Virus record (IMG/VR): IMGVR_UViG_3300028283_000030
Span: 1 to 24,394 of that record
Origin: a virus
DNA: 24,394 bases
Reading direction: 5' to 3' (one strand)
How positions within the stretch are numbered: the stretch's first letter is position 1; the number at the start of each line of letters is the position of its first letter. Position numbers and translations under genes: made by a program. Shown here one piece after another: positions 13,405-23,199 of this stretch. The notes below the pieces were generated by a model. It was not told the DNA's origin, did not search any database, and worked only from the letters and a program-made list of their open reading frames with translations.

Positions 13405-13414
13405 ATATTTAGTT

Positions 13415-13705
13415 TTAATTGTTTGTAAATTTAATTGTTTTTCCCTTTATACCATAAACTAATTTCTTTGGTTTATGAACTTTCTTTATTTTATGAATAT
13501 CCTCATGACATCTTTTACAAAGCGTAATCAAATCTTTGTCTAGTGCTTCCCAAGGATATGTACCTGAATATTTAAGATGATGTACATTTAAGAGACCTAC
13601 TGCTCCGCATTTGACACATTTATATCTATCTCTTGCCAGAATTTTGTTTCTTTTAAACTTCTAACGAGGACTCTTTAAACATTCCTTATACTCTTCCTTG
13701 GTCAT
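13415..13705 (-). pseudogene. HNH endonuclease interrupted by in-frame TAG (13663-13661)
   Basis: ATG at 13705-13703 opens MTKEEYKECLKSPR, then TAG, then in the same frame KFKRNKILARDRYKCVKCGA, LNVHHLKYSGTYPWEALD, LITLCKRCHEDIHK and a basic tail to TAA at 13417-13415 (96 codons). CxxC (YKCVKC), VHHL and LCKRCHEDIH are the zinc and HNH active-site motifs. In many such HNH proteins the position after S-P-x is Trp (SPxW...R), so TGG to TAG is a likely one-base change. No Met follows the TAG before the zinc site, so without read-through only a 14-residue peptide is made. It starts 2 nt after the stop of the RepL-like gene, in the same operon. Confidence 0.8.
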
Positions 13706-13707
13706 TA

Positions 13708-14196
13708 TCAACAATCTTTACATCCTAATTCAATAATTGCTTTCAATGCTTTATTTCTATGAGATGTGGATCCTTTGAATGCATATCTTGGATTAATTTG
13801 ATACATTCCCTTTCCGTGAGTAGCTACAAGATTTGCTCCTTTTAATTCAGTAAGAGCATTTGCTACTGCACTTGTTGACATTCCTATTTTTTTAGCAATT
13901 AATGTTCTAGATCCACCACCTATTTCAAATGTTGTTTCAGAATCATAATTAGCCAATAAGTAAGCATATGTAGATTTTGCTGGATGAGATAAAGTAATAA
14001 AAATAGGAAGTACGTTTACATATAGTATCATAAACTCTTCCTTAGAGTTGGCAATATAACTATGCTTCTTTATATTCAAATCTACCAAAACTCCATCATT
14101 ATCAAATATTCTATCTCTTTCCATAAGACTTGTTTTTAAATAGCTTTGTTCATATCTCAGAGGAGGTTGATATTTTTGAGATTTTCTACGTGGCAT
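13708..14196 (-). CDS. Winged-helix RepL-like replication/regulatory protein
   Basis: 162 residues from the ATG at 14196 (an upstream TTG would add two). After a variable N-terminus, FITLSHPAKSTYAYLLANYD, SRTLIAKKIGMSTSAVANALTELKGANLV (helix-turn-helix about 98-124) and THGKGMYQINPRYAFKG (wing and NPxYxFKG end) follow the order of plasmid RepL initiators and related wHTH proteins. RepL-type proteins bind an origin next to or inside their own gene; the gap just upstream (14197-14435) has two large inverted repeats. Could instead be an autoregulator. Cys-rich C-terminus (GCKDC). Confidence 0.65.
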   Translation of the reverse strand: MPRRKSQKYQPPLRYEQSYLKTSLMERDRIFDNDGVLVDLNIKKHSYIANSKEEFMILYVNVLPIFITLSHPAKSTYAYLLANYDSETTFEIGGGSRTLIAKKIGMSTSAVANALTELKGANLVATHGKGMYQINPRYAFKGSTSHRNKALKAIIELGCKDC

Positions 14197-14212
14197 GATC
14201 AATAAAATTAAA

Positions 14213-14227
14213 ATTCGTTCTACGAAT
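14213..14227. promoter_or_regulatory. Small inverted repeat over a -7-like box, possible operator
   Basis: ATTCG-N5-CGAAT, 17 nt upstream of the RepL-like ATG, overlaps TATATTCG on the minus strand (14230-14223), which is one base off the TAnnTTTG box. A binding site for the wHTH protein over its own promoter is possible; weak evidence. Confidence 0.3.
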
Positions 14228-14270
14228 ATACGACATTATTCTAAATAATTTAGATAATTATAAAACTATT

Positions 14271-14330
14271 TTCTACACTTTCACAGGAGATATTCTATAC
14301 AGGTAGAAGATGGAGTGGGAAAGTGTAGAA
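14271..14330. repeat. Perfect 12-bp inverted repeat, 36-nt loop
   Basis: TTCTACACTTTC (14271-14282) pairs exactly with GAAAGTGTAGAA (14319-14330). It lies in the only large gap of the minus arm (14197-14435), directly beside a second, longer inverted repeat. Candidate origin or structured RNA element. Confidence 0.75.
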
Positions 14331-14333
14331 TGG

Positions 14334-14398
14334 AAATAGGATATATTTGAAGTTAACGTATTAATCTTAAATTCTTTAACTTCAAATATATCCTATTT
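14334..14398. repeat. Perfect 23-bp inverted repeat, 19-nt loop
   Basis: The left arm 14334-14356 (AAATAGG...AAGTTAA) is the exact reverse complement of 14376-14398 (TTAACTT...CCTATTT). Each arm holds TATATTTG, the Bacteroidota -7 box, so the two arms present it on opposite strands. No T-tract follows either side, so a simple rho-independent terminator is unlikely. The rest of the gap (14197-14435) is AT-rich, with a small palindrome CTAAATAATTTAG at 14241-14253; I see no gene in it. Confidence 0.85.
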
Positions 14399-14435
14399 CT
14401 TATGTTAGTCTATCATACTCCTCATTAATCTTTTT

Positions 14436-15771: not shown

Positions 15772-16152
15772 TTATTTATCAAAATAATCACTAGTAATTC
15801 CAATTCTTAACAATATTTTACGAACAATGTTTTGATATTTACTCTCCATCTTGTAATGTTCATAGAACTTCATCTTAGAATGTATAACACTCGCATGATC
15901 ACGACATTTTCCATTTCTTCCTTGAAATCGCATAGCTATTCTAGTTTGAGTTTCATCTGTCAGTATTTTAGTAAGTGTTTGTAATATTTGTCTGGGCTCA
16001 AGATACGTTCTCTTCTGAGAAGAAGATGCTATTTCACTAAATGGGAGATTGAATTCACAACACACTGCATCCCGGATAATCTCAAAGGTTACCTTTTTAC
16101 CTAAAATAACAATTCCGGGATATGCCCAATATGAAACTTGGTCATTACTCAT
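15772..16152 (-). CDS. DnaA domain IV-like DNA-binding protein
   Basis: 126 residues. AVCCEFNLPFSEIASSSQKR, YLEPRQILQTLTKIL and CRDHASVIHSKMKFYEHY follow the C-terminal DNA-binding domain of DnaA (v...f.v...el.s.sRkr.....Rqia..L......s...IG..fg.RDHtTVlha). The RDHASVIHS signature at 84-92 is clear. No AAA+ ATPase part exists, so it is a stand-alone origin-binding or regulatory domain. Upstream of recA by 6 nt and overlapping the small gene at 16149. Candidate to recognise DnaA boxes in host or phage DNA. Confidence 0.8.
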   Translation of the reverse strand: MSNDQVSYWAYPGIVILGKKVTFEIIRDAVCCEFNLPFSEIASSSQKRTYLEPRQILQTLTKILTDETQTRIAMRFQGRNGKCRDHASVIHSKMKFYEHYKMESKYQNIVRKILLRIGITSDYFDK

Positions 16153-20897: not shown

Positions 20898-21449
20898 TTA
20901 TTTGGTTAATAACTCAATAGAATTTTCAATCTCATCTCCCCATACATCCCAACCTTCAGTTTGTTGACGAGCAAATAATTCTATTCTTGGAATATCTCCA
21001 CATAATTGTACTATTCTTTTTCTAACCTCATCTGGTTTTTGTGAGTGTCTTTCAATTGGTGTATTTACTATTGAGTGAATACCAGCATTTATTCTTTTAG
21101 GACTACCTCTTGTTGCTAGCAAACATAGTTCTGCATTTGCTCTTGTCCACCTACCCATTCCCCAAAAGAAACTATTTGCCTTTTTATTATTCTTTACCCA
21201 AGTAAAAGCAACAGTTTTATATTCAAATCCCCAAGATTTAATCAAATCAAAAACCTCATTAAGTTTTGGCATCGTTACCCATAGAAATAATATACAGTCT
21301 TTATCACAGATTTCTTTAATGTCTATTTTTGCAATATCTATGATATTCATTACATTATACTTACAACCTGCTCCTCTATTACCTGCAAGTGCCTTGTCTC
21401 TATAGATCCAAGGAGGATCTGCATAAATTATTTTATATTTCTTCTTCAT
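20898..21449 (-). CDS. MT-A70 family DNA N6-adenine methyltransferase
   Basis: 183 residues from ATG 21449 (a TTG at 21470 would add seven). KYKIIYADPPWIYRD with catalytic DPPW (11-14), KDCILFLWVTMPKLNEVFDL, FFWGMGRWTRANAELCLLAT, HSQKPDEVRKRIVQLCGD and RIELFAR...GWDVWGDE, the full MT-A70 order. The enzyme methylates adenine at N6 in DNA (phage members) with S-adenosylmethionine. Probably protects phage DNA from host restriction or marks it; no cognate restriction enzyme is encoded here. Confidence 0.92.
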   Translation of the reverse strand: MKKKYKIIYADPPWIYRDKALAGNRGAGCKYNVMNIIDIAKIDIKEICDKDCILFLWVTMPKLNEVFDLIKSWGFEYKTVAFTWVKNNKKANSFFWGMGRWTRANAELCLLATRGSPKRINAGIHSIVNTPIERHSQKPDEVRKRIVQLCGDIPRIELFARQQTEGWDVWGDEIENSIELLTK

Positions 21450-21466
21450 TTTCCGTGTTTTAATTT

Positions 21467-21835
21467 TCAACCATGTTCAAAGTTAGGTTCTCCTTCAAAT
21501 TCTGTTGCTATATAAAGAGGGATAATTACTTCTTCCATATCTTCAGTTTTTTCATTCCATTTAAAGATAGTTTGTGTTCCTGTTTTAACAGGATCTTTAG
21601 CAGAAACGGTTCCCATTACTCCACAGTAATGATTATATCTTTCACAATATCTCTTCTTTCCTCTTAGCCACGCTTTCCATTGCTTTAAATATTCCTTCAC
21701 AGAAACCACTAATACACAATCGAAATCTGAATCTTCATCGTTTTTAAAACCATGAGTTAAAAGATGAATATTCTTTCCAACCACTCCCAATATTTCTGTA
21801 TTGGGGCATTCCAAGAAAATTGTTATTTCTTCCAT
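21467..21835 (-). CDS. Hypothetical protein
   Basis: 122 residues: MEEITIFLECPNTEILGVVG, DFDCVLVVSVKEYLKQWKAW, a basic patch (LRGKKRYCERYNHYCGVMG) and VIIPLYIATEFEGEPNFEHG. The middle looks like a surface-exposed basic helix. Not recognised. Sits between the GIY-YIG gene and the methylase. Confidence 0.55.
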   Translation of the reverse strand: MEEITIFLECPNTEILGVVGKNIHLLTHGFKNDEDSDFDCVLVVSVKEYLKQWKAWLRGKKRYCERYNHYCGVMGTVSAKDPVKTGTQTIFKWNEKTEDMEEVIIPLYIATEFEGEPNFEHG

Positions 21836-23148: not shown

Positions 23149-23160
23149 AATATAAAAATT

Positions 23161-23191
23161 AGGAGCTACAAAGATACACAGTGTAGCTCCT
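23161..23191 (-). terminator. Rho-independent terminator after the RIIB-like gene, with a -7-like box in its loop
   Basis: On the minus strand AGGAGCTACA (23191-23182), an 11-nt loop and TGTAGCTCCT (23170-23161) form a perfect 10-bp stem followed by AATTTTTA. The loop and arm also contain TATCTTTG (23176-23169), a full match to TAnnTTTG, so the same bases may start transcription of the HNH gene. Confidence 0.75.
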
Positions 23192-23199
23192 AATTTGTC

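Follow-up and report, generated by a model that had tools for sequence, protein, structure and literature searches.

We identified, in the leader of a phage repL gene, three phased 16-bp sites that probably form an iteron-like array bound by RepL, which would serve as a replication origin, as an operator of repL, or as both. The stretch analysed (24,394 nucleotides; hereafter, the window) has the gene content of a tailed phage, including structural genes, an endolysin, RecA/UvsX, an exonuclease VIII-like protein, a RIIB-like protein and homing endonuclease genes. The two inverted repeats noted in a preliminary description of this DNA were placed there between a RepL-like gene and the recA group, and they indeed lie back to back in a gap with repL on one side and HNH and recA genes upstream. 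Since the genes on either side of it are both read from the minus strand, this gap forms the repL leader, and a cis-acting control region of that gene is its best explanation. The same description called it the only large gap of the replication arm, which holds only if the 303-bp stretch at 13405-13707 is counted as a gene. This stretch (minus strand, directly after repL) has an HNH endonuclease-like frame (..KCVKCGAVGLLNVHHLKYSG..LCKRCHEDIH..) with one in-frame stop near its start, and appears to be a broken or shortened HNH gene. No tRNA was found in a scan of the region, blastn of the gap against phage records gave no match, and a scan of the viral collection retrieved no nearer relative of the leader, so that no close relative for showing its conservation was found.

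The protein encoded by repL belongs to the RepL family: it matches the Pfam RepL profile (PF05732; E 7e-7) with 29.3 bits against a curated cut-off of 20.3, bearing out its earlier naming, and 8 of 8 aligned homologues match the same profile. The family motif PhiNPx5G is present as INPRYAFKG; motifs of the NPx5G type were described in previous studies of the family (PMC5779722, PMC12089946). A structure model (overall pLDDT 76) places a winged helix at about residues 93-133, with values of 85-94 in these blocks. Fold matches of the model were weak and generic (MarR, CRP and CodY domains, and the plasmid initiator 4pta), with no nickase fold among the matches listed. Scanning the genome collection for RepL gave a single short, distant match.

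Table 1. Positions of repL and of the elements found in its leader
Feature	Position	Strand	Description
repL	13708..14196	minus	162 aa, initiator-like winged-helix protein
Promoter-proximal palindrome ATTCGTTCTACGAAT	14213..14227	none	holds TTCTAC at 14218-14223; candidate operator
Putative RepL site 3 (repL order), TTCTACACTTTCACAG	14271..14286	plus	outer unit in the small inverted repeat; 22-bp step to site 2
Putative RepL site 2, TTCTATACAGGTAGAA, palindrome	14293..14308	none	same dyad as the outer pair
Putative RepL site 1 (repL order), TTCTACACTTTCCCAC	14315..14330	minus	22-bp step to site 2; orientation opposite to site 3
Large hairpin, AT-rich	14333..14399	none	24-bp perfect arms 14333-14356 / 14376-14399, 19-nt loop
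Possible partial box copy TATGATAGA	14409..14417	minus	9 letters kept of the relatives' box TATRATARATAGAG; tentative

The smaller of the two repeats is, as first reported, an exact 12-bp inverted repeat (arms 14271-14282 / 14319-14330), and it turned out to frame a larger arrangement of three 16-bp units at steps of exactly 22 bp, in which a palindromic unit is flanked by two that are inverted to each other (Table 1). The half-site TTCTAC is common to the middle palindrome and the outer pair, and three of the six copies of TTCTAYAC in the window fall in the 60 bp of the array. The sites lie 75-135 bp upstream of the repL start codon, and their 22-bp spacing, about two helical turns of DNA, would put all three on one face of the helix. 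When the 36-bp loop was shuffled 100,000 times, a palindrome with 11 of the 12 half-site letters never appeared at the offset of site 2 and appeared anywhere in the loop only twice, a test that is partly after the fact, the half-site having been derived from this very sequence. A general triplet score for the array was weak (matched by 171 of 3,000 shuffles), and the case for three sites therefore rests on comparison with other repL leaders.

The layout of three sites upstream of repL is kept in three related records, with letters that differ from those of the window. In L001 (386+, 408+, 430-) and L013 (1853+, 1875+, 1897-) the steps are 22/22 bp and TACGCTTAAAAGTGTA, or a near copy of it, occurs twice directly and once inverted; in L005 (7430-, 7452-, 7476+) the steps are 22/24 bp and the site is the variant TACGCTATAAAGTGTA. 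Across these whole records (45-117 kb), repL is the only place where close matches to the sites cluster. The single-strand fold of the L001 array, with an outer stem formed by sites 1 and 3 and an inner stem by site 2, resembles that of the window. The consensus TACGCTTAAAAGTGTA and the window sites agree in nothing beyond TACACTTT, and a profile of the relatives' sites scanned over the window did not pick out the gap; the window sites are thus recognized by layout and not by letters. A search of viral contigs for the site pair of the window at its 36-bp spacing found none. Four relatives also carry, once per record and with up to 1 mismatch, the box TATRATARATAGAG (L001:322-335, L005:7344-7357, L010:1815-1828 and L013:1788-1801), located 183-219 bp upstream of repL and, in L001, L005 and L013, 64-65 bp before the first site. 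The possible partial copy in the window is 87 bp from the first site; its 9-mer is present at two places in the window, and the box can alternatively be aligned to an arm of the large hairpin. An additional contig with the box, L021, lacks a nearby repL and was judged a chance occurrence.

A wider survey covered 24 other repL leaders, spanning phages and plasmids of several phyla and including Staphylococcus (pNE131, pRIVM6519-1), Lactiplantibacillus, Arsenophonus, Moritella plasmids and Dulem virus 41. In each we looked for three similar 16-mers following one another at steps of 21-22 bp, and compared the score with those of 200 shuffles that preserve dinucleotides. In 17/24 leaders the triplet was matched by at most 1/200 shuffles (the Streptomyces leader L038, with a best spacing of 18 bp, is a weak case among these), and in two more by 2-3/200; those matched by none of the shuffles include plasmid pNE131, Lactiplantibacillus, Arsenophonus and Dulem virus 41. 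Five leaders had no significant triplet at 21-22 bp (L018, L024, L027, L032 and L036; by name L018, Campylobacter, SAP104B, Selenomonas and phage HS1). Among control leaders of other genes in phage loci, 6/120 reached 0 of 60 shuffles. Measured against these controls, the survey indicates that repL leaders commonly carry arrays of sites spaced by about two helical turns. The leader of pNE131 (L025) has two copies of TTTGTTCTAATTT 22 bp apart and, after another 22 bp, a palindromic third site of the GTTCTTTTTTTTTTAGAAC type, directly upstream of repL.

These results may be explained by a model in which the three sites at 14271-14330 are most likely bound by the winged-helix initiator RepL. Once bound, the protein would mark the DNA as a replication start or open it there, in the manner of an iteron-like origin, or would repress its own promoter, at which a further palindrome with the half-site TTCTAC is located, or would do both. 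This 15-bp palindrome, ATTCGTTCTACGAAT, carries a fourth TTCTAC and overlaps a degenerate -7 box, TATATTCG (14230-14223, minus), which is the best approximation in a leader that contains no perfect promoter pair. The established promoter consensus of Bacteroidota has the -7 box TAnnTTTG, and most of the Bacteroidota-type phage leaders have a promoter-like TTTG/TTG...TAnnTTTG pair within about 70 bp of the start codon, as does the repL leader of a Bacteroidota plasmid of Tunicatimonas. In L005 and L013 the -7 box is at -11 and is overlapped by a palindromic TACGYT...GYGTA-like site. Such promoter-like pairs in the leaders support both a host of the Bacteroidota type and autoregulation of repL, each of which we consider plausible on the basis of sequence.

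The sites could also be an operator only, binding RepL or another regulator as a repressor of repL, with replication starting elsewhere, for example inside repL; a pure operator with no origin function would present an identical picture. The additional palindrome over the likely promoter fits such a role, and phage P1 offers a precedent, as its lytic origin oriL is placed in an AT-rich stretch within the repL gene, where the start is postulated to be (PMC9948254). We regard this as possible but rather unlikely, because three phased sites 75-135 bp upstream exceed the needs of a simple operator, as does the single-copy box that the relatives carry 64 bp further up. GC skew, proposed earlier as a check for an origin, does not turn at the gap, as would be expected if replication started elsewhere; skew in the window follows gene direction, and in two relatives repL lies inconsistently, near the skew minimum in one and near the maximum in the other. 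A pattern search found no DnaA boxes in the gap; these boxes are common, not universal, in iteron-type replicons. The least stable 30 bp of the window leader, where an AT-rich unwinding element might be sought, are at -69 to -39 (-27.4 kcal/mol, against a window mean of -36.6), and their place varies among relatives. The array departs from the direct repeats of iteron-type replicons, with its outer sites in inverted orientation around a palindrome; an inverted site is also seen in L001 and L005. Of the three roles suggested in the preliminary description (replication origin, divergent promoter pair and structured RNA), a replication origin still appears the best, and its candidacy draws on the small three-site element and the other repL leaders rather than on the large hairpin.

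The large hairpin was initially reported as a 23-bp perfect repeat (14334/14376); it is perfect but one pair longer, starting at 14333, and its arms lengthen to 30 nt with two mismatches (14333-14362 / 14370-14399). These arms are, as had been stated, far beyond chance, since the longest perfect inverted repeats in the window (loop up to 30) measure 24, 15, 11 and 11 bp, and in ten shuffles of the whole window the longest was at most 11. The fold of the hairpin as single-stranded DNA reaches -21 kcal/mol (z -10). It is positioned between the possible TATGATAGA box and the first site, a stretch occupied in relatives by a 64-bp spacer that contains no equivalent hairpin; the conservation of the arms in related phages, suggested at first as a check, was thus not observed. 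Exact searches for the arms in viral and genome collections found no copies. Our guess, and the role we favor, is that of a cruciform or priming hairpin beside the RepL array: being AT-rich, it might extrude as a cruciform under negative supercoiling, or else fold in single-stranded DNA, in both cases aiding strand opening or priming.

Several other roles for this hairpin were considered. Its position 36 bp past the HNH stop codon, between two genes on the same strand, would suit an intrinsic terminator of the recA-HNH operon. This is improbable, as there is no T-tract after either hairpin, in agreement with the first description, and a terminator scan of the region made no call. The second-longest hairpin of the window (23156-23196, minus, 15-bp perfect, after the RIIB-like gene) is, by contrast, a conventional terminator followed by TTTTTATATT, so that this phage does use terminators with T-tracts. 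The perfect arms, missing in relatives, might also be what is left of a mobile element bounded by 24-bp terminal repeats. We find this very hard to credit, given that the arms are just 19 bp apart and occur nowhere else in the collections searched, and that the box-to-site distance (87 bp, compared to 64-65 in relatives) is not the 64 plus 67 predicted by an insertion.

Each large arm does contain, as previously noted, a -7 box TATATTTG (14342-14349, plus, and 14383-14390, minus), and this sequence agrees with the Bacteroidota consensus given above. The two boxes are oppositely oriented, as claimed, but they face each other, and neither has a TTTG partner (-33) 17-23 bp upstream. The window contains 6 copies of TATATTTG where 3.3 are expected, which is not above chance. 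The proposal of a divergent promoter pair therefore fails, and a promoter pair of either kind, convergent or divergent, with TATATTTG as its -7 boxes is extremely unlikely.

A structured RNA, in which both hairpins fold in a transcript running from recA/HNH into repL and protect, process or attenuate it, finds some basis in the flanking genes sharing one strand and in the minus-strand RNA of the gap, which folds far better than shuffles (z -7.6). The plus strand folds nearly as well (z -6.1), as expected of any inverted repeat, and no Rfam family was matched at the gathering threshold, with only generic miRNA-precursor matches when the threshold was relaxed. Moreover, the large hairpin has no equivalent in relatives, and the likely repL promoter of L005 and L013 lies directly against the start codon, which leaves the repeats there upstream of its transcript. 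We thus consider an RNA role unlikely, its predicted fold notwithstanding.

The iteron-like array that we prefer shares features with several known systems. The pSN2-family RepL replicons (S. epidermidis pNE131 and relatives) encode a protein of the same family, and the pNE131 leader has the 22/22-bp steps of the window (TTTGTTCTAATTT, TTTGTTCTAATTT, AATGTTCTTTTTT). These plasmids have been described as rolling-circle replicons with a dso and an ssoA and are held to replicate in this way, with copy control not known (PMC5703833), whereas the window belongs to a tailed phage with a 24-bp hairpin beside the array; no nick site was recognized in the gap, which was examined with no nick-site consensus to scan with. 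For pBAS2, another RepL plasmid, the mechanism was called unclear, with no single-stranded DNA and no obvious nick site observed (PMC5779722); one C. coli RepL plasmid was reported to have no iterons (PMC11389370). Rep_3 iteron replicons, such as staphylococcal pSK639 with its five 22-bp repeats upstream of rep (PMC5703833), resemble the window in having sites about two helical turns apart, upstream of and near the promoter of a winged-helix initiator that may be autoregulated. They differ from it in that the window initiator is RepL, its three sites include an inverted one and a palindromic middle one, DnaA boxes are lacking, and site letters in arrays of this type vary from phage to phage. 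The lytic replicon of P1 is likewise a phage replicon whose initiator is named RepL, a likeness by name, and an AT-rich element matters there (PMC9948254); its oriL is within repL, unlike the window array. On balance, the comparison suggests that the window array would act as an iteron origin or operator, in an inverted and palindromic arrangement that textbook iterons do not have.

In the open literature, subscription journals being outside the search, we found no account of repL leaders as generally carrying 22-bp site arrays. There is no settled view of how RepL initiates replication: plasmids of the pSN2 type are classed as rolling-circle although RepL is a small protein, and pBAS2 showed no nick site or single-stranded DNA. 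Phasing at 21-22 bp common to phage and plasmid repL leaders of several phyla leads to a concrete, testable origin model, and the array indicates which DNA to clone and footprint. A more far-reaching possibility, which we put forward only tentatively, is that the RepL family generally, from staphylococcal plasmids to phages with Bacteroidota-type promoters, is iteron-type (using 21-22-bp arrays upstream of its own gene) rather than, or besides, rolling-circle, with this phage adding a 24-bp cruciform-forming origin hairpin.

Among the remaining minus-strand genes of the window, 15772-16152, beside recA, encodes a 126-aa protein resembling a stand-alone DnaA domain IV (Bac_DnaA_C, E 3e-12) that has no AAA+ part, and 20898-21470, in the replication arm, is an MT-A70-type methyltransferase gene (Pfam E 9e-31).
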